Program-made: the position numbers and the translations under genes | Part shown: piece after piece, positions 32,281 to 44,501 of the stretch | Layout: every line of letters begins with the position of its first letter | Position numbering within the stretch: the stretch's first letter is position 1 | Notes under the pieces: generated by a model | Databases searched by the model: none | Told to the model about the DNA's origin: nothing | Seen by the model: the letters and a program-made list of their open reading frames with translations, nothing else | Origin: Streptomyces kanamyceticus | GTDB lineage: Bacteria > Actinomycetota > Actinomycetes > Streptomycetales > Streptomycetaceae | NCBI RefSeq assembly: GCF_008704495.1 | Contig: NZ_CP023699.1 | Location: 9,424,001 to 9,488,000, forward strand | Direction of reading: 5' to 3' | Length of the DNA stretch: 64,000 nucleotides

Positions 32281-32583
<303 letters not shown>

Positions 32584-32599
32584 CGGGGGACCGCGCCTC

Positions 32600-32947
32600 A
32601 TGCATGCCGCAGCGCACGCTGTCACGGGTCGGGGAACGATCCCCGGCGAGATCCTCTTCGCCGACGACCCCGTCTCCTTCAACGAGGGCCGCGAGGTCAC
32701 CCGCCTCACGGTCCTCAATGCCGCCGACCGCCCCGTCCAGGTCGGCTCCCACTACCACTTCGCCGAGGCCAACCCGGGTCTGGACTTCGACCGCGGCGCC
32801 GCGCACGGAAAGCGGCTGAACATCGCCGCGGGAACCGCCGTGCGCTTCGAGCCCGGAATTCCCGTTGACGTCGAACTCGTTCCGCTGGCCGGCAAGCGCA
32901 TCGTGCCCGGTCTACGCGGAGAGACCGGAGGTGCCCTCGATGCCTGA
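32600..32947 (+). CDS. ureB: urease subunit beta
   Basis: A 115-residue urease beta chain with the signature [37 protein letters not shown] and [12 protein letters not shown]. It begins 16 bases after ureA and overlaps ureC by eight bases. The C-terminus, [12 protein letters not shown], is shaped by this overlap. Confidence 0.96.
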
Positions 32948-34661
32948 GCTGTCCCGTGCCGCGTACGCCGATCTGTTCGGCCCCACCACCGGCGACCGCA
33001 TCCGGCTCGCCGACACGGATCTGCTGATCGAGATCGAGGAGGACCGCTCCGGCGGGCCGGGACGCTCCGGCGACGAGTCGGTGTTCGGCGGCGGCAAGGT
33101 GATCCGCGAGTCGATGGGCCAGTCGCGGACGACCCGTGCCGAAGGCGCCCCCGACACCGTCATCACCGGCGCCGTGACCATCGACCACTGGGGCATCGTC
33201 AAGGCTGACATCGGTGTCAGGGACGGCCGCATCACCGGCATCGGCAAGTCCGGCAACCCCGACACGATGGACGGTGTCCACCCCGAGCTCGTCATCGGCC
33301 CGGAGACCGAGATCATCGCGGGCAACGGCAAGATCCTCACCGCGGGCGGCATCGACACCCACATCCACTTCATCTCGCCGACCATCGTCGACGAGGCCCT
33401 CGCCTCCGGCGTGACCACGCTCTTCGGCGGCGGCACGGGCCCTGCCGAGGGCAGCAAGGCGACCACCATCACGCCCGGCGCCTGGCACCTGGCCCGGATG
33501 TTCGCCGCGCTGGAATCCAGCCCGGTCAACATCGGCTTCCTCGGCAAGGGCAACACCGTCAACGCCGAGTCCATGCACGCCCAACTCCGCGCGGGCGCCG
33601 TCAGCTTCAAGATCCACGAGGACTGGGGCGCGACCCCCGCCACCATCGACGCCTGTCTGAACGTCTGCGAGGAGACCGGCGCCCAGCTCGCCGTCCACAC
33701 GGACACCCTCAACGAGGCGGGCTTCGTCGACGCCACCTTCGATGCCGTGGCGGGCCGCACCCTGCACGCCTTCCACGTCGAGGGCGCGGGCGGCGGCCAC
33801 GCCCCCGACATGATCACGGCCGTCTCGCTGCCGAACATGCTGCCGAGCTCCACCAACCCGACCCGGCCGCACACCGTCAACACCGTCGAGGAACACCTCG
33901 ACATGCTGATGGTCTGTCACCACCTCAACCCGGCCGTCCCGGAGGACCTCGCCTTCGCCGAGTCCCGCATCCGGCCCACGACCATCGGGGCGGAGGACAT
34001 CCTGCACGACATCGGCGCCATCTCGATCATGTCGTCGGACTCCCAGGCCATGGGACGCATCGGTGAAGTGATCATGCGTACGTGGCAGACCGCGCACGTG
34101 ATGAAGCGGCGCCGGGGCTACCTGCCCGGAGACATACGCGCCGACAACCACCGCGCACGTCGCTATGTCGCCAAGTATACGATCAACGCGGCCGTCGCCC
34201 AGGGCATCGACCACGAGCTGGGCTCGGTGGAGTCCGGCAAGCTCGCCGACCTGGTCCTGTGGGAACCGGCGTTCTTCGGCGTCAAGCCGCAGGTGGTCCT
34301 CAAGGGCGGCCAGATCGCGTACGCGCAGATGGGCGACGCCAACGCGTCGATCCCGACCCCGCAGCCGATCCTGCCGCGCCGCATGTACGGCGCGCACGGC
34401 AGGGCCCCCGCGCTCAACTCGATCAACTTCGTCACCCAGTCGGCCCTCGACGACGGACTGCCCGAACGCCTCGGCCTGGACAAGCAGTTCACCGCGATCC
34501 GTTCGACGCGCGGCCGCTCGAAGGCGGACATGTACGAGAACGACGCGCTGCCCCGGGTCGAGGTCGCCCCCGACAGCTTCGCCGTCACCATCGACGGCGA
34601 GCTCGTCGAACCGTCGCCCGCCGCGGAACTGCCGCTCGCGCAGCGGTACTTCCTCTTCTGA
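32940..34661 (+). CDS. ureC: urease subunit alpha
   Basis: The 573-residue catalytic subunit. Nickel ligands are visible as H141 and H143 in the HIHF motif and carbamylated K224 in [11 protein letters not shown], with the histidine-rich flap MVCHHLNP and [12 protein letters not shown]. The start is ATG 32940 ([19 protein letters not shown]), overlapping ureB by eight bases. Length matches the family, so the enzyme should be intact. Confidence 0.97.
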
Positions 34662-34713
34662 CGGCTTCGACCACCGAGGTTTCGACGGTCTCAACTCACC
34701 TGGCGACGATCAC

Positions 34714-35388
34714 ATGTCACGAGCAGCACTTCTCGTCCTGGCCGACGGACGTTTCCCCGCCGGCGGGCACGCCCACTCCGGCGGGGCCGAAGAGGCCGTC
34801 AAGACGGGCCGCGTCACCGGCGCCGCGAGCCTGGAGTCCTTCTGCCGGGGCCGGTTGCACACCACCGGCCTGGTGACGGCCGCCCTCGCGGCGGCCGCCG
34901 CCCTCGGCGTCGATCCGGTGGACCTGGACGTGGCGGCGGACGCCCGTACGCCGTCCCTGGCGCTGCGCATCGCCGCGCGGCGCCTGGGGCGGCAGATGAT
35001 GCGGGCCGCCCGGGCCACCTGGCCGGACCCGGAACTCGACGCGCTGGCACGGCGGTTCCCCAAGGGCGCGCATCAGCCCGTCGTGCTCGGCCTCACCGCC
35101 CGCGCGGCCGGGCTCGGCCCCGAGGACGCGGCGTACTGCTCGGCGTACGAAGGGATCAGCGGGCCCGCGACCGCGACGGTGCGGCTGCTGAGCCTCGATC
35201 CCTTCGACGCCACGGCGGTCCTTGCCCGGCTCGCCCCGGACGTCGACCGCGTGGTGCGCCAGGCGGTCGACGCGGCGGCGCGTGTGCTGGACGACGGCGT
35301 CGGCGCGTTGCCCGCGGGGTCGGCGCCGCTTCTGGAGATCGGGGCGGAGGCGCATGCCGCTTGGCCTGTGCGGTTGTTCGCCTCCTAG
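34714..35388 (+). CDS. ureF: urease accessory protein UreF
   Basis: A 224-residue helical protein that, with UreD and UreG, delivers nickel to the apo-urease. The start MSRAALLVLADGRFPAGGHAHSGG contains the conserved DxRFPxGGxxHSxG motif, and the middle has YCSAYEGISGPATATVRLLSLDP. It begins 52 bases after ureC. Confidence 0.92.
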   Translation: MSRAALLVLADGRFPAGGHAHSGGAEEAVKTGRVTGAASLESFCRGRLHTTGLVTAALAAAAALGVDPVDLDVAADARTPSLALRIAARRLGRQMMRAARATWPDPELDALARRFPKGAHQPVVLGLTARAAGLGPEDAAYCSAYEGISGPATATVRLLSLDPFDATAVLARLAPDVDRVVRQAVDAAARVLDDGVGALPAGSAPLLEIGAEAHAAWPVRLFAS

Positions 35389-35457
35389 CTGGCTTGGCTG
35401 ATGTCGCGGGGCTGTGCCCCGGACCCCCTTTCGGCCTGAACGGCCTCGTCCTCAAAC

Positions 35458-35538
35458 GCCGGACGGGCTGAAAACCCTCTCCGTGCCGGACGGGCTGGAG
35501 ACCCTCTCCGCGCCGGATGGGCTGAAAACCCCGTCCGA
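35458..35538. repeat. three-copy 27-bp tandem repeat within a Streptomyces-type intergenic repetitive element
   Basis: The ureF-ureG spacer (35389-35569) starts with a hairpin GGGGC-TGT-GCCCC and continues CCTCAAACGCCGGACGGGCTG, wording I know from the repetitive intergenic element common in Streptomyces genomes. Its terminal part is repeated as 27-base units at 35458, 35485 and 35512. Units 1 and 2 are nearly identical; unit 3 is diverged. Confidence 0.65.
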
Positions 35539-35569
35539 TCCCTACTCACTGAAATCTGGAGCCGTAACC

Positions 35570-36249
<680 letters not shown>

Positions 36250-36253
<4 letters not shown>

Positions 36254-37047
36254 CGGTCGACCTCGCCCCCCGGGGCGTCACCCGAACGGGCGGCGGCGCG
36301 GGCGTCCGCGGCACCGCCCGTGTGGAGGCCCGCGCCGACGGGCGTGGCGGCACCGCGCTGCCGGTGCTCGACGGCGAGGGCCCGCTCGCGCTGCGCCGCA
36401 CCCGGTCGACCGGGTCCGGGGCGCACATCACGCTCGTCGGCGCGATGAGCGGTCCCCTGGGCGGCGACCGCCTGACCGTCGACGCCACCGTGCGCGCGGG
36501 CGCCGCGCTGCACATCGGCTCCGCGGCGGCCACCATCGCGCTGCCGGGCCAGAACGGCGACTTCGCGCGCTACGACGTACGGCTGACCGTCGAGGACGGC
36601 GCGGAACTGCACTGGCTGCCCGAGCAGTTGATCTCGGTCCGCGACAGCGACCTGCGCGTCACCACCCGCGCCGACCTCGCCCCGGGCGCCCGCCTCGTGC
36701 TGCGCGAGGAACAGGTCCTGGGCCGGGTGGCCGAGGCGCAGGGGCGCCTCACCAGCCGCCTCACGGTGTACCGCGCGGGCAGCCCCCTGCTCGACCAGGA
36801 ACTGTCCTGCGGGCCAGGCGCCCTCGCGGGCTGGGACGGCCCCGCCGTCCTCGCGGGGAACCGGGCGGTCGGGCAACTGGTCGTCGTACGGCCGGAGTTC
36901 GCCGAGGACATGCCCGGGCCCGCGCCACTGGGGGAGTGGGCCGCGCTCACTCCACTGGCGGGCCCCGCGGTCCTGGTCACCGCTGTGGCGCCGGACGCGC
37001 TGCGGGTGCGCAGGGCCCTGGACGAGGCGCTGAACACCCTGGGCTGA
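36250..37047 (+). CDS. ureD: urease accessory protein UreD
   Basis: A 265-residue UreD/UreH protein ([58 protein letters not shown]), the scaffold for the UreF-UreG complex. I chose GTG 36250, which overlaps the ureG stop by four bases (GTGA); an in-frame GTG at 36235 would add five residues. Last gene of the urease operon. Confidence 0.92.
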
Positions 37048-37056
37048 CAGACCGTT

Positions 37057-37698
37057 TTAGTTCTCCCTTCGCTGGAGCACGACGTACCGAGCCGCCCAGT
37101 CCGTCACGCCCCGCTGTCGGCCGAAATCGGAGATCCGGTGGTCGAGCACGGTGAACCAGGTGGTCACCGCGGTGCGGAAGGTCTCCTCCGTGGTCCAGGA
37201 CGGTCCGCTGGACTGGTGCAGGGCGTCCTCCTCGGTGAGCGCGGCGGCTCCGACGTGTATCCACAGTCCGCCGGGGCGGCACATCCGGGCCATCGCCGCG
37301 GCGAACGTCCGGCGCTCACGGTGGGTGGGGCAGGTGTGCAGTACGCCACGGTCGAGGACCACGGGGAACGGGTCCAGGGGCGGGTGAGCGGTGACGTCGA
37401 GTACCTCGTAGCGCACGGCCGCATCGGCCGGTGTGCGGCGCCGGGCCTCGGCGATCGCCCGGGGCGAGAAGTCGCAGGCCGTCACCGTGTAGGAGCGGTC
37501 GGCGAGCCACCGCGCGGTGGTGCCGAGCCCGCAGCCGACATCCAGTACGTGGGTCGGCGGCGGAGCGTGCTCGGTGAGGAGTTCACCGAGCAGTGGTGGC
37601 GGCTCCTCGTCCCATCCAGGGGTCGTGGAGTCGTACGTGTGGTCCCATTCAGCCGCGTTGAGGGAGCGCAGCGGCCCGGTGGCTTCGCCTTGAGACAT
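37057..37698 (-). CDS. class I SAM methyltransferase of the RiPP island
   Basis: A 213-residue methyltransferase with motif I VLDVGCGLGTTARWLADR, post-I acidic residue in TACDFSPRAIAEA, and motif III PGGLWIHVGAA. It is the last gene of the four-gene minus-strand island, 18 bases after the radical SAM gene, with AAGGACC before the ATG. It could methylate the peptide (N- or O-terminus, or side chain). It ends nine bases after the convergent ureD gene. Confidence 0.85.
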   Translation of the reverse strand: MSQGEATGPLRSLNAAEWDHTYDSTTPGWDEEPPPLLGELLTEHAPPPTHVLDVGCGLGTTARWLADRSYTVTACDFSPRAIAEARRRTPADAAVRYEVLDVTAHPPLDPFPVVLDRGVLHTCPTHRERRTFAAAMARMCRPGGLWIHVGAAALTEEDALHQSSGPSWTTEETFRTAVTTWFTVLDHRISDFGRQRGVTDWAARYVVLQRREN

Positions 37699-37716
37699 GG
37701 TCCTTGATCCCTTCCG

Positions 37717-40260
37717 TCAACTTACGACCGGCCAGCGGGAGATGCGGGAGGGCAGCCACCACAGCAGAGAGCCGACCTGGTGCACGAGGCCTGACTTCAG
37801 GAACGCTTCGATCTCCTGTTGCCGGAAATCCGACACGGGGGCGCCGTCCAGCAGTGATGCCAGTTTCCCCTTGTGCACCTTGCGCATGAGGACGCGCCGC
37901 TGCGTTCCGTGGCGCAGGTCGGTGACCTCGACGAAGCCCTTGCCGCGCCGGTAGCCGCACTTGTTCATGTGGAACGTGGCGCGCCACTGATCGAGGACGG
38001 CGTCGCCGTCGGGACCGGCCACCGAACGCGGCGGGTAGAGGTGGCTGAACAGCCGCCACTGTCCGATCTCGGTGCCGAGGTCCAGCTCCCAGTCGACGGA
38101 GAGGCCGTGCCCGGTCAACTCCCGCACATGGGTGAGCCCGCGGACCGCGTCCCGGTCACTCTCGGGGTCGCCGTGGCCGAGGAGCACGGGCCCCGGAAGG
38201 GCGACGTGCCGGGTGCCTCGCGCGACCAGGTCCGAGACGGTCCGCACAGCGGTGTCGTCGTACGGACCCTCTCCCATGTAGATGCCGTCCCTCGCGCGCG
38301 TCTCCTCGTCGCGTTCCCGCCAGCACCGGAGCGCCGTCGCCGTGCTCGTTTCCGGTACGCGGCCCACCGGGTCCTGGAGCAGCGCGGGCACCAGGGCGGG
38401 ACTGCTGTCACGGGTCACCCAGCGCATGAGGTCCTGGTTGGCGGCGAACGGTACGACGTGCACGGTCTGGCCACCGTCCTCGAAGAGCAGCCCCAGCGTG
38501 CGCCAGCGGGCGAGCACGGCCGACAGGTCCTCCGCGGCGATGTCGTGCTGGGCTTCCCGGAGCTTCTTCGCCAGCACCTCGCTCGTACACGGCTGTTCCA
38601 GGAGCCGGAAGGCGGCCATCTCCCAGGGTTCCTCGATGCTCAGCGTCCGCCAGGCGAAGCCGGGCCGGGTGTTGGTGAGGACGATGGAGTCCGTCAGGTC
38701 GCACTGGGTCAGCCGCCCTCGGGGGAACTCGTGACGCCAGGTCTCGACGGCCTTTTCCAACCGCTCCGCGTGCGCGGTGGAGATGCCTTGGTGCGCCGCG
38801 TCGAAGACATAGGCCATGTCCCGGAGTTCGGACTCCGGGAGATCGTAGATCACCGCGTAGTGAGCGGCGGGCCGCAGGTCGCCGAAGCCGAGTTCCGGGC
38901 GGTTGAAGTAGGGGCTGAAGCGTTCGATGGCTATCCGGGTCACTCCATTGGGCGGAGCGAGGTGATGGATGGCGGGGAACTGGTCGATCACCGAGTCGTA
39001 GTCGTCCTCGGTCTCGGCGGGAAAGCCGAAGAGGTAGTTCCACACGACGCCGAGGCTCACCGACTCCGCGTCCCGCAGCATGCGGACGTTCTGGCAGCCG
39101 GTCACCCCTTTGTCCATCAACTTGAGGACACGGGCGCTGAGGCTTTCGATGCCCGGCTGCACGTAGTGGATTCCCGCGGCGACGAGCGAGGCGAGCTGCT
39201 CGCGGCGCATGTTGGACTTGATCTCATAACTGATCCGCAGGTCGCATTCGGCCTCCGCGAGCCTCGGGACCACCGACCGCAGATACGTCATGTCCAGGAT
39301 GTTGTCGGCCACGGCGACGTTGAGCACCTGGTGGCGTTCGGTCATCGCGAGCAGTTCGTCGACGAACCGGTCCGGGCTCTTGCTGCGGAATTCCATGAAC
39401 GAACCGTTGAGCCCGCAGAAGGTGCAGTGATGCTTTTGACCCCACCAGCAGCCGCGTGAACTCTCCAGGACCAGATGGGGCTCGGCCATGGCCCTGGCGC
39501 GAGAGGCCGCGTGCTGCTCGAAGTAGTCCGTGTAGTCCGGGGTGACCAGTGCCGACGCGGGCAACGGGGCCGCCCGCATGGCATTGGCGTGCGAGACGCC
39601 CTCCGCATCGCGCCAGCAAAGCCCGGGAATGTCCGCGGGGTTCGACTCGTCGCGAAGGCAGGCGAGCAGCCGCGTGAACGACACCTCGCCCTCACCGCGG
39701 TTGACGTAGTCGATGAAGGGGAAGCCGCGATGGAGCGCGGCGCCCTGGGGGCCGTCACAGTTGCCGCCACCCAGCACCACACGCACTTCTGGCGCGGTCT
39801 TCTTGATGAGCCTGGCCGCGGCGAGAACGGCACTGTTCTGCGCGAAGGTCGTCGAGAAGCCGACGACGTCGGGCCGGTCGGCGAGAATGCGGCCGACCAG
39901 GGACGCGATGTATTCGGGGGCGAGCGCGTGCAGCTCTCGCCCCTTGTTGAGCATGTCTCCCGGCACCGCTCCCGCCACGAGGTCCGCGAATGCGGAGTTG
40001 CGCCACTGCGGATCGTCGTACAGCGCGGAGGAGAAGATCCACTCGCTGTAGCCGGTGAAGTAGGAGTCCCAGCAGAAGTTGTACTCCTCACGCGTGAGAC
40101 CTGCTCGCTCGGTGATCCAGTCGAGGTAGTCGAGATTGGCGTTCACGACGTCGACACGACTCTCCGGGAACTCGTCCGCGACGCGACGCTTGAGGATTCC
40201 CAGGGCCAGGGAAGGGAAGTCAATTGAGGCCCAGGGCATATTGACCAGGGTGATGTGCAC
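37717..40260 (-). CDS. B12-binding radical SAM RiPP maturase (C-methyltransferase type) fused to a DUF5825-like domain
   Basis: An 847-residue protein matching the RiPP maturation radical SAM C-methyltransferase family (rSAM_ocin_1). Domains in order: B12-binding-like Rossmann region (about 1-215; VVGFSTTFAQNSAVLAAARL, VRVVLGGGNCDG); radical SAM barrel (about 260-480) with a C271-x7-C279-x2-C282 cluster motif in RGCWWGQKHHCTFCGLNG; a winged-helix-like region (about 540-610); and a C-terminal segment (about 642-847) resembling the DUF5825 proteins usually encoded separately. The start is GTG 40260 with AAGGAG, 12 bases after the upstream radical SAM gene. Family assignment is strong, the DUF5825 assignment moderate; the reaction is inferred. 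Confidence 0.85.
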   Translation of the reverse strand: MHITLVNMPWASIDFPSLALGILKRRVADEFPESRVDVVNANLDYLDWITERAGLTREEYNFCWDSYFTGYSEWIFSSALYDDPQWRNSAFADLVAGAVPGDMLNKGRELHALAPEYIASLVGRILADRPDVVGFSTTFAQNSAVLAAARLIKKTAPEVRVVLGGGNCDGPQGAALHRGFPFIDYVNRGEGEVSFTRLLACLRDESNPADIPGLCWRDAEGVSHANAMRAAPLPASALVTPDYTDYFEQHAASRARAMAEPHLVLESSRGCWWGQKHHCTFCGLNGSFMEFRSKSPDRFVDELLAMTERHQVLNVAVADNILDMTYLRSVVPRLAEAECDLRISYEIKSNMRREQLASLVAAGIHYVQPGIESLSARVLKLMDKGVTGCQNVRMLRDAESVSLGVVWNYLFGFPAETEDDYDSVIDQFPAIHHLAPPNGVTRIAIERFSPYFNRPELGFGDLRPAAHYAVIYDLPESELRDMAYVFDAAHQGISTAHAERLEKAVETWRHEFPRGRLTQCDLTDSIVLTNTRPGFAWRTLSIEEPWEMAAFRLLEQPCTSEVLAKKLREAQHDIAAEDLSAVLARWRTLGLLFEDGGQTVHVVPFAANQDLMRWVTRDSSPALVPALLQDPVGRVPETSTATALRCWRERDEETRARDGIYMGEGPYDDTAVRTVSDLVARGTRHVALPGPVLLGHGDPESDRDAVRGLTHVRELTGHGLSVDWELDLGTEIGQWRLFSHLYPPRSVAGPDGDAVLDQWRATFHMNKCGYRRGKGFVEVTDLRHGTQRRVLMRKVHKGKLASLLDGAPVSDFRQQEIEAFLKSGLVHQVGSLLWWLPSRISRWPVVS

Positions 40261-40272
40261 CGTGTGACTCCT

Positions 40273-42222
40273 TCAGCGTGACGGACTGGTTGCCGGTAGC
40301 GGTTCGTTGCAGAGGACACCGACATCCGCGGCGGCGAGCTTGCCGAGTAGGAACCGGCCCTGCGCACTGGTCGCGATCAAGGGACCACCGGGCGCGGCGC
40401 TCCGGGTCACGTGGTTCTTCGGCAATGAGTACACCTGTTCCCGTACGGGATCGGCCAGCAAGGAGGAATCGCCGCCCGGGCCGTGCGGGGCGAACCTCGC
40501 CGGAGCGCACCGGATCCACGGATGCGGGCGCAGCGCGATGTGTTCCGCAGGGGGTTGCGCCGCGGCTTCGGCGGGCCCGGCCGCCGCAGGACCGGAGATC
40601 CGGCGCATGCCGTGCTTCAGCCGCCGCAGCATGTCGGGGCGCTCGGGTCCGCCGACGACGGTGTGCCGCCTGCCCACCCTGCCGCCCAAGTAGTTGAGTT
40701 CGCGGTTGTCGGCGAACGCATCGGACCCGTCGAGGACCACGCCGAAGGACTGCGGATCGGCCACCAGGCGGGTTTGCGGCTCGACCACCATGAGCTCGAA
40801 CGCGTCGATGGCGAACTTGTCGCGGTTGCGTTCGAGGAAGCGGAGCGATTCCTCGGACTCCTCCTCGGTCTCGTCCAGAAGGCCGCCCATGATCGAGAGA
40901 TTGACCCGTATGTCCGCCGCTGCGAGGTTGTCGAGAATGACTTGGAAGTCCCCGGCCTGAACGCCCTTGTCCAGTCTGTCGAGCAGCCGCTGTGTGACGC
41001 CTTCGTAGCCGACGGCCATTCCCTCACAGCCCAGTTCTGCCAGTTCCTGGCAGAAGCCCGGATCGAGCAGGATCGGCTCAAGGCGGTTGCGCGTATTGAA
41101 ACGCACCTGAACACCGCGCTCGCGCACCAGGCGCATGGCGCGGGCGAGCAGTCGCAGATTGGTGTTCTCATCGACAACGGTGACGAAGTCGATTCCGGTG
41201 TTTTCTACGATGTGGCATACCGCGTCCGCGAGTTGCCTGGGGGAAGCCTGCTGATACGCCCCGCGTTCGAGAGACCGATTGCCGTAGGAACAGAAGATGC
41301 AGCGTCCCCAGTAGCAGCCCACACAGGACACCATGGAGAGGACAACGGTGTCATTGAGGTAGGAGTGCACCTTCAACCCGGCGTAGTCAGGCGGGCCGAT
41401 GTCCTTGAAGCGAAGGGTTGGCAGTCGGCTCGGGCCTGCCACGCCCTCGGGGCTCAGCCATCGCATCCCCGGCACGTCGGAGCGCGGCGCGTTTCCATGG
41501 AGGTGGGCCAGCCAGCGCTCCAGGGGCTCCTCACCCGCCGTGATACAGAGAGCGTCCACGGCCCTGCGTACCGATGCCATCGATGCCAGTTCGGAGTGGC
41601 GCAGCATGACTTGCTGCCCGCCGAGGCAGATGGGCATGCCCGGGTGGCGCTGGCGGATCCATTGGGCGATCAGCAGAGCGGGCGCCAGCTGGCTGAAGAA
41701 GGCGACGGAGATGCCGACCGCCCGCGGCGCGGACTCGTCAAGAGCCTCGGTCAGCAAAGTGTGCAGATTCCCGGTCGCGAAGTCGAGGGAATCGACCCTC
41801 GATTCCGACAACCGTTCAACCGCCTGGTCGAGCGAGTCGAAGTCGTCCCACACTTGCGACAACGCCGAGTCGCGCATCATCAGTTGGGCGCTCTGCCGGG
41901 CCAGTCGCACCGCGCGTACGGGACCCAGGCGGGGCGCCGGGTTCTTCGTCAGGACGAAGTCGCGCATTTCGCCGAGATGCCGCACGGCGGCATCGGCTAC
42001 GACCGCTCGATACCAAGTGGGCAGATCTGGTGCCTCGTCCAGGGCCTGGGCCTTGCGCATGAGTGCCGGGCCGTCAAGAAGCCGGTGGACCAATTCGATG
42101 CCCAGATCGACCTGATGGGCGCTGTAGCCGAATCGTCGGACGTGACCGGCGAGATAGGGCAAACTCAGATAGGGAAAGAGAGTTGCCTCCGTTGGCGGCG
42201 GAAAGAGCAGCAAGAGATCCAT
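40273..42222 (-). CDS. B12-binding-domain radical SAM protein of the RiPP island
   Basis: A 649-residue radical SAM protein. The N-terminal region (about 1-230; LLLLFPPPTEATLFPYLSLP, GISVAFFSQLAPALLIAQWI, PICLGGQQVMLR) is a cobalamin-binding-type Rossmann fold. The cluster motif is C303-YWGR-C308-IF-C311, with an extra Cys300 just before it. The barrel continues through FVTVVDENTNLRLLARAMRL and EGMAVGYEGVTQRLLDRLDKG. The last 130 residues look like a separate, Pro/Ala-rich domain of unknown role. ATG 42222 has GGACGGA upstream. It is the first enzyme gene after the precursor, so it probably acts on that peptide. Confidence 0.85.
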   Translation of the reverse strand: MDLLLLFPPPTEATLFPYLSLPYLAGHVRRFGYSAHQVDLGIELVHRLLDGPALMRKAQALDEAPDLPTWYRAVVADAAVRHLGEMRDFVLTKNPAPRLGPVRAVRLARQSAQLMMRDSALSQVWDDFDSLDQAVERLSESRVDSLDFATGNLHTLLTEALDESAPRAVGISVAFFSQLAPALLIAQWIRQRHPGMPICLGGQQVMLRHSELASMASVRRAVDALCITAGEEPLERWLAHLHGNAPRSDVPGMRWLSPEGVAGPSRLPTLRFKDIGPPDYAGLKVHSYLNDTVVLSMVSCVGCYWGRCIFCSYGNRSLERGAYQQASPRQLADAVCHIVENTGIDFVTVVDENTNLRLLARAMRLVRERGVQVRFNTRNRLEPILLDPGFCQELAELGCEGMAVGYEGVTQRLLDRLDKGVQAGDFQVILDNLAAADIRVNLSIMGGLLDETEEESEESLRFLERNRDKFAIDAFELMVVEPQTRLVADPQSFGVVLDGSDAFADNRELNYLGGRVGRRHTVVGGPERPDMLRRLKHGMRRISGPAAAGPAEAAAQPPAEHIALRPHPWIRCAPARFAPHGPGGDSSLLADPVREQVYSLPKNHVTRSAAPGGPLIATSAQGRFLLGKLAAADVGVLCNEPLPATSPSR

Positions 42223-42261
42223 GCCATCCGTCCTGATCCGGACAGTGCGACCGAGAACCGA

Positions 42262-42326
42262 AGGAGCTCACAAGCGGGCGCCGCTCCGACCTCGCGGCCT
42301 TCAGGCGGCAGATCTTGTGAGCTCCT
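42262..42326 (-). terminator. attenuator-type stem-loop between precursor and radical SAM genes
   Basis: Arms AGGAGCTCACAAG (42262-42274) and CTTGTGAGCTCCT (42314-42326) are a perfect 13-bp inverted repeat with a 39-base loop. It lies 24 bases after the precursor stop and 40 bases before the radical SAM start. No T-run follows. Partial termination or RNA protection here would give more precursor than enzyme, as in many RiPP clusters. Confidence 0.65.
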
Positions 42327-42350
42327 CATGCAGCGATTCAGCCGGGCCGA

Positions 42351-42500
42351 TCAGCCCGCCGGTATCTCCGAGGAGCGGTCTGCATTCTTGGCGATGTAGT
42401 TGTAGGCCGTGGACGAACCGCTGACTTGCAGTTCGTCCATCTCGAGTACCTCAAGTTCGCCGAGGTCGCTGTCGACTTCGGTGCTCATCTGGATGTCCAT
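42351..42500 (-). CDS. RiPP precursor peptide (49 residues)
   Basis: A short gene directly upstream of two B12-type radical SAM genes. The leader, residues 1-28 (MDIQMSTEVDSDLGELEVLE, then MDELQVSG), is strongly acidic and has the ELxVSG ending seen before RiPP cleavage sites. The putative core, residues 29-49 (SSTAYNYIAKNADR, then SSEIPAG), has no Cys or Trp but two Tyr, two Asn and several Ser/Thr. GGAGG four bases upstream of ATG 42500 fixes the start. No Cys means no lanthionine or sactionine; C-methylation or Tyr-based cross-linking is conceivable. The cleavage point is inferred. Confidence 0.75.
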   Translation of the reverse strand: MDIQMSTEVDSDLGELEVLEMDELQVSGSSTAYNYIAKNADRSSEIPAG

Positions 42501-42899
42501 CGAACCTCCATGTGTGAGTGGAACATGAAACTGGAGTGCATTTCTGGGACTCCGGTTCTCGAACAGACTCGCTGTGACGTTTCCTCATGGTCAAGGGCGC
42601 CATTGAGCCATGATCGGCTGGACGGTGCGCCGCCGCCGTCGCCCCGGCCTCGTCGTAGCCTCGTCCTGACCTCGGGCTGACCTCGGACGACCGGATGTAC
42701 GCCGCGACGAGCAGGGCGCCGCCCCCCTCCGGACCCGTGTCCGGATGTCACCGACCCACCCTCCCCGTTGAGCGGTTCAGGGTTCACCGTTTATCGGATT
42801 GGTAAAGAACCCCCGCCACATCTGTCGCAGGGAACCTAGCGGCGCGAGGATCCCTCGTACTGATCGAATCTGCTCGAATCGATGTGCGGGAGGCCCCAC
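42501..42899. other. intergenic region between RiPP precursor and tripeptidyl aminopeptidase gene
   Basis: It holds the divergent promoters. A short plus-strand frame (42426-42680) and a minus-strand frame (42485-42787) are not credible genes. The sequence near 42790-42810 (TTTATCGGATTGGTAAAG) is AT-rich and may be the aminopeptidase promoter. Confidence 0.4.
42565..42594 (-). promoter_or_regulatory. candidate promoter of the RiPP operon
   Basis: On the minus strand TTGACC (42589-42594), an 18-base spacer and GAGTCT (42565-42570) would start transcription about 57 bases before the precursor ATG. The -10 box is a poor match. Confidence 0.35.
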
Positions 42900-44501
42900 T
42901 TGCGACGGACCCCAGGAAACAGACGGACCGCGGTGCTCGGCACCGCGGGCACCCTGGTCACGGCCACGCTGATCGCGGGCGCCATGGCCGCGCCCTCGGC
43001 GAACGCCGACGCGGGTGCCCGCTCCGGGAAGGACCGCGAGGCGCGCGGTGTCGCGCTCGCCGCGCAGCGCGCAGCGAAGGCCGGCGTCGACTGGCGGGAC
43101 TGCCCCGCCGACTGGGGCCTGGAGAAGCCGATCCAGTGCGGCTGGGTCTCCGTGCCGCTCGACTACGCGAAGCCCAACGGCAAGAAGATCAAGATAGCCG
43201 TCGACCGCATCGGCAACACCGGTTCCGAGAAGGAGCGTCAGGGCGCCCTCGTCTACAACCCAGGCGGCCCCGGCGGCTCCGGCATGCGCTTCCCGACGCG
43301 CGTGACCAAGAAGAACCCGGTCTGGGCCAAGACCGCCAAGGCGTACGACTTCGTCGGGTTCGACCCGCGCGGCGTCGGCCACTCCACGCCGATCTCCTGC
43401 GTCGACCCGCAGGAGTACGTGAAGGCGCCCAAGGCCGACCCGGTGCCCGACTCCGAGGCCGACAAGCGCGCCCAGCGCAAGCTCGCCGCCGAGTACGCGG
43501 ACGGCTGCGCCGAGCGCAGCGGCTGGATGCTCCCGCACATGACCACGCCGAACACGGCGCGCGACCTCGACGTGGTCCGCGCCGCCCTCGGCGAGAAGAA
43601 GCTCAACTACCTGGGCGTGTCCTACGGCACCTACCTGGGCGCCGTCTACGGCACGCTCTTCCCCGCCCACGTCCGCCGCATGGTCGTGGACAGCGTGGTC
43701 GACCCCTCCCGCGAGAAGATCTGGTACCAGGCCAACCTGGACCAGGACGTCGCCTTCGAGGGCCGCTGGAAGGACTGGACCGCGTGGGTCGCCAAGAACG
43801 ACGCCACCTTCCACATCGGTGACACCCAGGCCAAGGTGCAGCAGCAGTGGGAGAAGCTGCGCGCCACCGCCAAGAAGAACCCGATCGGCGGTGTCGTCGG
43901 CCCCGCCGAGCTGACCGCCTTCTTCCAGGGCGCGCCCTACTACGACTCGTCGTGGGTGCCGGTCGCCGAGACCTGGAGCAAGTACCTCGCCGGGGACACC
44001 AAGGCGCTCGTCGACGAGGCGGGCCCCGACATGTCCGACACCGCGGGCAACATCTCCGACGAGAACGGCAACGCTGTCTACACCGCGGTGGAGTGCGCCG
44101 ACGCCAAGTGGCCGACCAGCTGGCGCAAGTGGGACCGGGACAACACCCGCCTGCACAAGGACTATCCGTTCCTGACCTGGTCCAACGCGTGGATGAACCT
44201 GCCGTGCGCCACCTGGCCGACCAAGCAGCAGACCCCGCTGAAGGTCAAGACCGGCAAGGGCCTGCCCGCCGTGCTCATCGTGCAGTCCCAGCGTGACGCG
44301 GCCACCCCGTACCAGGGCGCCGTCGAGCTGCACAAGCGCTTCAAGGGCTCCCGCCTGATCACCGAGAAGGACGCGGGCTCCCACGGAGTCACCGGCCTGA
44401 CCAACCCGTGCATCAACGACCGGGTGGACGGCTACCTGCTCGACGGGAAGACGGACGCCAAGGACGTGACGTGCGCACCGCACGCCACGCCCAAGCCGTA
44501 A
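42900..44501 (+). CDS. tap: secreted tripeptidyl aminopeptidase (alpha/beta hydrolase)
   Basis: A 533-residue exported serine peptidase. The start is TTG 42900, six bases after GGGAGG; an ATG at 42882 has no ribosome site. Residues 1-37 are a signal peptide (MRRTPGNRRTAVLGTAGTLV ... ending PSANADAG). The oxyanion segment is YNPGGPGGSGM, nucleophile GVSYGTYLG, Asp in VQSQRDAATP and His in DAGSHGVTG, matching the Streptomyces Tap/SlpD family that removes tripeptides from secreted protein N-termini. Its place beside the RiPP island is probably coincidental, but an extracellular trimming role cannot be excluded. Confidence 0.9.
   Translation: MRRTPGNRRTAVLGTAGTLVTATLIAGAMAAPSANADAGARSGKDREARGVALAAQRAAKAGVDWRDCPADWGLEKPIQCGWVSVPLDYAKPNGKKIKIAVDRIGNTGSEKERQGALVYNPGGPGGSGMRFPTRVTKKNPVWAKTAKAYDFVGFDPRGVGHSTPISCVDPQEYVKAPKADPVPDSEADKRAQRKLAAEYADGCAERSGWMLPHMTTPNTARDLDVVRAALGEKKLNYLGVSYGTYLGAVYGTLFPAHVRRMVVDSVVDPSREKIWYQANLDQDVAFEGRWKDWTAWVAKNDATFHIGDTQAKVQQQWEKLRATAKKNPIGGVVGPAELTAFFQGAPYYDSSWVPVAETWSKYLAGDTKALVDEAGPDMSDTAGNISDENGNAVYTAVECADAKWPTSWRKWDRDNTRLHKDYPFLTWSNAWMNLPCATWPTKQQTPLKVKTGKGLPAVLIVQSQRDAATPYQGAVELHKRFKGSRLITEKDAGSHGVTGLTNPCINDRVDGYLLDGKTDAKDVTCAPHATPKP

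Follow-up and report, generated by a model that had tools for sequence, protein, structure and literature searches.

A probable MNIO-free relative of the biphenomycin-like peptide pathways in a four-gene island of Streptomyces kanamyceticus

Four adjacent genes on the minus strand of Streptomyces kanamyceticus (positions 37057 to 42500 of a 64,000-nucleotide stretch of NZ_CP023699.1, here called the window; its genome, G000, measures 10.13 Mb) probably form a branch of the biphenomycin-like (PbsB/BipD) family of ribosomally synthesized and post-translationally modified peptides (RiPPs) that is free of the multinuclear non-heme iron-dependent oxidative enzyme (MNIO). Judged from the genes alone, one of two B12-type radical S-adenosylmethionine (SAM) enzymes, rSAM1, would link Tyr33 to Tyr35 of a small precursor peptide, and the other, rSAM2, fused to a DUF5825 domain, would C-methylate it. 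The initial annotation had described a compact RiPP island with two such enzymes, made up of four minus-strand genes including a 49-residue precursor without Cys. All four open reading frames (ORFs) lie where it placed them, and the island is supported by homology, synteny and a conserved precursor.

rSAM1 (649 aa; 40273..42222, minus strand) scores far below every NCBIfam cut-off. By sequence homology and tree position it falls in the PbsB/BipD family of biaryl cross-linking enzymes, grouping with those encoded beside FHxFxF or YHxYxY precursors, and is a putative Tyr-Tyr cross-linker. The B12-dependent radical SAM enzyme of pbs and bip clusters is reported to join the two hydroxylated Phe residues of an FRF motif through a biaryl bond (PMC12257519, PMC12707348; 2025). 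A Cx4Cx2C motif of rSAM1 (Cys303, Cys308, Cys311; 41290..41316, minus strand), presumed to ligate a [4Fe-4S] cluster, is invariant in 17 aligned family members. Matches of the two radical SAM enzymes to the Pfam B12-binding model, at 22.8 bits (rSAM1) and 31.4 bits (rSAM2), fall short of its gathering cut-off of 32.1 bits. B12 is assigned to rSAM1 because its N-terminal domain profile matches that of rSAM2 with 97% probability, because OxsB is the sole Protein Data Bank match of the family profile at E ≤ 0.001, and because BipD, a family member, is reported to contain B12 (PMC12707348).

Homologues of rSAM1 stand together with FHAFRF precursors, an MNIO and its partner protein in Peribacillus (L063) and Paenibacillus (L064). 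A bip-like set in another Streptomyces genome (G281, L070:6074-15487) comprises an FHAFRF precursor, MFS and TPR genes, a radical SAM enzyme 31% identical to rSAM1, an MNIO and a partner. Its further genes, named by eye, presumably follow the published order of JmjC, HExxH and TldD, and with these the region looks like a complete biphenomycin-type cluster. The family assignment agrees with the earlier suggestion that the first enzyme is more distant and could catalyze a different step. The claim that the island matches no named RiPP class does not survive: rSAM1 falls in the PbsB/BipD family, and a second B12 radical SAM enzyme with a DUF5825 protein beside a PbsB-type enzyme has already been described for clusters with YHxYxY precursors (PMC12257519).

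The precursor gene (42351..42500, minus strand; 49 aa, no Cys) has GGAGG ahead of its ATG and encodes an acidic leader ending in ...DELQVSG, followed by SSTA-Tyr33-Asn34-Tyr35-IAKN. A 49-codon ORF of the same kind precedes rSAM1 in three further loci that form a clade with the window, those of S. atriruber (L040), S. silaceus (L050) and S. xylophagus (L055). Nonsynonymous and synonymous substitution rates (dN/dS pairs) against the window precursor are 0.018/0.31, 0.035/0.41 and 0.183/0.82, respectively, and the precursor is under purifying selection. Protein searches with it match 9 clusters at 77-96% identity; equal lengths of the longest contigs suggest, short of proof, that 7 of these share a contig with an rSAM1 cluster.

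The Tyr33-Asn34-Tyr35 codons (42396..42404, minus strand) mark the putative cross-link site, collinear with FRF and YTY of the pbs and stg precursors. Across the end of the leader and the core, the clade aligns without gaps to pbs-type and YHxYxY precursors. The aromatic-His pair of FHAFRF and YHxYxY is replaced by Ser-Thr in the window and Pro-Thr in S. xylophagus, with Y-x-Y retained; the window core, SSTAYNY, thus carries neither the FHxFxF nor the YHxYxY motif, [FY]H being absent while leader and Y-x-Y are collinear. Tyr33 and Tyr35 are invariant across 10 aligned clade precursors, and Asn34 becomes Ser in S. xylophagus, where the Y-x-Y spacing is kept too. Among the 120 precursors listed of 131 matches, 61 are FHxFxF, 50 are YHxYxY and 9, all from the window's own clade, are without the pair; this tally serves as a census rather than an independent test, the query profile having included each of the three types. 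Database YHxYxY precursors (P0130-P0240) include YHSYYYYC (6), YHSYTYHC (2) and YHSYTYNC (2), in which Cys directly follows the aromatic core.

That the peptide is no precursor, but an ORF arisen by chance or some unrelated small protein, is hardly credible. It is short, and 3 of the 9 matching clusters carry no source name, but dN lies far below dS, the position is the same in all four loci despite differing flanks, and the core aligns gap-free with pbs-type precursors. The initial annotation had named two findings as telling against its reading, a peptide non-coding in close relatives and homologous enzyme pairs consistently lacking it. Neither was seen: dN is far below dS in three clade loci, the peptide is present in 4/4 clade loci, and homologous precursors accompany the enzymes in 21/21 MNIO-bearing loci. 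A non-coding peptide is ruled out by dN/dS and synteny, and a pearlin-type carrier peptide by the missing Cys and the absence of an amino-acid ligase among the four genes.

The comparison that defines the clade draws on 26 loci with rSAM1 homologues from a scan of public genomes, the window being additional. At E ≤ 1e-60, a homologue occurs in 7 of 246 genomes of the genus and 2 of 374 of the class, each count including G000; the rSAM1 protein search lists at least 120 of 173 matches, with the best 7,992 candidates scored. MNIO and partner matches are found in 21 of the 26 loci, all 21 with [FY]HxZxZ precursors, those of L056 and L062 being found by a plain [FY]HxZxZ search only. Twelve loci (L041-L049, L053, L056, L065) have YHxYxY precursors and rSAM2 and DUF5825 matches, DUF5825 being a separate ORF in 11 and broken over frames in L065. 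In this last locus, from Streptomyces sp. P3, the rSAM1, rSAM2, partner, dehydratase, DUF5825 and sulfotransferase matches are fragmented, suggestive of sequence error or of a cluster in decay. The nine FHxFxF loci (L051, L052, L054, L057, L058, L061-L064) give no rSAM2 match within the locus DNA examined. Three loci stand outside the count of 26 (G068/L033, G150/L071 and G278/L072); L071 carries MNIO, partner, rSAM2 and DUF5825, L072 carries MNIO and partner, and for L033 the analysis covered alignment and gene calling.

MNIO and partner are absent from five of the 26 loci, namely the three clade relatives of the window and two distant ones (L059, L060); within the fetched flanks, none of the four clade loci has either gene. 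L059:6731-11923 (Longirhabdus) and L060:9995-15534 (Fictibacillus) are the regions with the distant MNIO-free homologues, which are 32-33% identical to rSAM1 and keep other gene company; no precursor was recognized in either locus. Their neighbors, named by eye, we take to be a BtrH-type protein and an AMP-ligase, with a carrier protein and a methyltransferase also in L060, and the substrate of these enzymes may be carrier-bound.

A maximum-likelihood tree of 34 rSAM1 rows unites the clade as one group (100/100) whose sister is the YHxYxY group (99/95), the Streptomyces FHAFRF enzymes falling outside; an earlier tree placed the clade likewise (97/96). The tree omits L065 (rSAM1 broken over frames), L062 and L069 (long branches), and L067 and L068 (misread or too short). 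Its root is the midpoint, so the direction of the MNIO change rests on the nesting, and the MNIO-absence label changes twice, as L059 and L060 are also MNIO-free. Because the clade nests inside MNIO-bearing relatives, the simplest history is probably that an MNIO-bearing ancestor lost the MNIO, its partner and the [FY]H pair, and that DUF5825 became fused to rSAM2. Ten rSAM1 positions (14, 28, 277, 280, 284, 327, 426, 441, 470, 505) separate 31 clade rows (4 loci seen without MNIO and 27 database proteins assigned by at least 65% identity alone) from 19 MNIO rows, taken without L062 and L065. Such a pattern is as expected if the enzyme had adapted to a substrate without His.

A split cluster, with an MNIO encoded elsewhere hydroxylating the core first and an otherwise ordinary biphenomycin-type pathway, is very unlikely. 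G000 does have one MNIO-family gene, 7 Mb away (L066:1441-2787, about 2.51 Mb, 448 aa), but this sole member is BufB/HvfB-like, though longer than those models and below their cut-offs. Genome-wide protein searches at E ≤ 0.001 detected neither a Pbs-type MNIO nor its partner in G000 or in its same-genus relative G081, and detected both in G011, of the same genus, and in G281; an MNIO acting in trans was rejected on this ground. Further, the Phe/Tyr position needed by PbsC (Phe5; PMC12257519) is Ser in the clade.

rSAM2 (847 aa; 37717..40260, minus strand) reaches 606.1 bits against TIGR03975 (cut-off 281.85) and carries Cx7Cx2C (Cys271, Cys279, Cys282; 39415..39450, minus strand). Its earlier placement in a family known for RiPP C-methylation is thereby borne out; the DUF5825 domain (residues 673-845; 37726..38244, minus strand), which matches its profile at 162.2 bits (cut-off 25), is an addition. 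The fusion occurs in 4/4 clade loci. A homologous radical SAM and DUF5825 pair is reported to C-methylate in clavusporin biosynthesis (PMC12257519, citing Zhang 2025); the window shares B12 radical SAM enzyme, DUF5825 and, by homology, C-methylation with that pair, from which its single fused chain differs. In the fetched loci bearing rSAM2, the cores share Y-x-Y, then Ile/Lys/Val, then Ala, so the residues of Y-x-Y-[IKV]-A are the first places to look for C-methylation; some database precursors, such as YHSYYYYC, deviate from it. The class I SAM methyltransferase (213 aa; 37057..37698, minus strand) matches a generic class I profile and is present in 4/4 clade loci. Close to the YHxYxY locus L044, a 52% homologue is encoded on the opposite strand, and one of 32% follows rSAM1 in L060.

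A pathway can be proposed from these parts. The 5'-deoxyadenosyl radical of rSAM1 would abstract hydrogen from one of the two phenols, that of Tyr33 or of Tyr35, and the two rings would be coupled C-C to give a three-residue Tyr-Asn-Tyr macrocycle (-2 Da). Prior hydroxylation would not be needed because the core already has tyrosines: PbsB is reported to cross-link an unhydroxylated YTY variant at Cε2-Cε2 (PMC12257519), and a Tyr core should therefore need no MNIO. Before or after this step, the rSAM2-DUF5825 fusion would place one or more methyls (+14 Da each) on core carbons. Another methyl, on O or N, might come from the class I methyltransferase. Proteins encoded elsewhere would remove the leader and export the product. 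The earlier remark that exporter, protease and cyclase are all absent holds for the first two, neither being found within the four genes, and is probably wrong for the third, because rSAM1 is probably itself the cyclase.

Several points weigh against Tyr-Tyr cross-linking by rSAM1. PbsB is reported to be inactive on a His6Ala variant, and the clade is without that His; a YRY variant is likewise described as not cross-linked by PbsB (PMC12257519). Identity of rSAM1 to the Bacillota and bip-like enzymes is only 31-36%. A leader-binding domain resembling the lost partner was sought in rSAM1, rSAM2 and DUF5825 and set aside at hhalign probabilities of at most 0.4% (97% for a B12-domain control), which is a weak negative.

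Some of the same evidence could mean that rSAM1 has switched chemistry and makes another modification at or near YxY, such as an aryl ether, a Tyr-Asn or Tyr-Ile link or C-methylation, instead of the Cε-Cε biaryl. In favor of such a switch are the loss of the His that PbsB needs and the ten positions that set the clade apart from MNIO-bearing rows, and B12 radical SAM enzymes of RiPP pathways are described as mostly methylating (PMC12707348). It is nevertheless rather unlikely: neither the 10 aligned clade precursors nor L055 departs from the Y-x-Y spacing, the tree puts the clade inside the cross-linking family, and rSAM2 already supplies a dedicated C-methyltransferase. Cross-linking of Tyr33 and Tyr35 is the reading retained below.

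Set beside named systems, the pathway counts as a relative rather than a standard member of the biphenomycin-like RiPPs, because two defining features fail: the MNIO with its partner, and the [FY]H motif. With YHxYxY clusters such as stg (ATCC 700248; PMC12257519), the clade shares a PbsB-family radical SAM enzyme, a TIGR03975 B12 radical SAM enzyme, DUF5825 and a collinear precursor with Y-x-Y-[IKV]-A. Those clusters also have MNIO, partner, YH before the core, a separate DUF5825 gene and an Stf0 sulfotransferase (11/12 loci), whereas the clade has none of these and instead a fused DUF5825 and the class I methyltransferase. Flanking the YHxYxY clusters on the opposite strand are a lantibiotic-dehydratase-like gene (9/12 loci) and the Stf0 gene, for example L032:3042-6035 (-) and L032:12940-13803 (-), which suggests further tailoring there. 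The pbs/bip biphenomycin clusters (PMC12257519, PMC12707348) share a PbsB/BipD-family enzyme and a related leader with the island, which differs in being without MNIO, partner, arginase, Orn hydroxylase and TldD-type protease, in having Tyr for Phe, and in its extra C-methyltransferase; the sole TldD-family match in the genome G000 is located at 7.81 Mb. Aminopyruvatide and biarylitide (PMC13192836, PMC12951456) resemble the proposed product in a C-C bond between two Tyr of Tyr-x-Tyr (ApyO, YLY), but their cross-linker is a cytochrome P450, and none is encoded in the island.

The order precursor, rSAM1, rSAM2-DUF5825 fusion, methyltransferase is common to the window, S. atriruber, S. silaceus and S. 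xylophagus, while the flanks, named by eye from translations, vary: urease-like genes and a divergent hydrolase in the window, non-ribosomal peptide synthetase (NRPS) and FkbH-like genes in S. atriruber, hydrogenase-like genes in S. silaceus, and a two-component pair in S. xylophagus. Because the flanks differ, the four genes are the traveling unit, which includes neither exporter nor protease, and the urease-like genes (32281-37047, plus strand) and the divergent hydrolase (about 42882-44501, plus strand) are ruled out as parts of the island. NRPS, carrier-protein, acyl-CoA-dehydrogenase, FkbH-like and cupin genes, again named by eye, precede the cassette in S. atriruber (L031:1-8050); absent from the other clade loci, they are probably a separate neighboring cluster.

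Between precursor and rSAM1, a hairpin (42261..42327, minus strand; arms 42314-42327 and 42261-42274) is predicted. A long stem with related arms is possible in all four loci; the arms are near-identical in the window, S. atriruber and S. silaceus, where the loops differ, and shorter in S. xylophagus, where by eye they covary, one A-U pair being replaced by G-C. Hairpin z-scores are -2.36 (window), -3.32 (S. atriruber), -1.61 (S. xylophagus) and -4.11 (S. silaceus, over 283 nt); the first 128 nt of S. silaceus alone give 0.15 because the second arm lies beyond them. Neither an intrinsic terminator nor a sigma-70 promoter was found at 42200-42900, and both were set aside; the hairpin has no T-run. 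With no intrinsic-terminator pattern, a role as attenuator or mRNA stabilizer is possible by inference, and the hairpin, lying 3' of the precursor gene, may hold precursor mRNA in excess.

In the abstracts and passages covered, the literature on DUF5825, clavusporin, biphenomycin and B12 radical SAM/MNIO biaryl RiPPs yielded no MNIO-free cluster of this kind. One published motif survey reports the MNIOs of all 99 matches in a single MNIO cluster (PMC12257519), and MNIO-first mining of that sort would not start from this clade. Two questions are posed in the pbs work (PMC12257519): what led to the evolution of oxygenase activation of Phe, given that Tyr yields an identical ring, and what makes a B12 enzyme necessary. 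A natural clade without the oxygenase but with tyrosines opens the question of Phe activation to a direct test. Its rSAM1 would be a minimal enzyme for making Tyr-x-Tyr biaryl macrocycles, presumably without oxygen, and the single-chain fusion gives a handle on what DUF5825 does. As a tentative proposal, a B12 radical SAM enzyme here could natively join two unhydroxylated Tyr in a pathway that lost its oxygenase; freed from the His that PbsB requires, this enzyme may fix a single atropisomer or even form a linkage not known from any B12 radical SAM enzyme. If this is true, a four-gene island relying solely on SAM chemistry would yield a peptide that is both macrocyclic and C-methylated.

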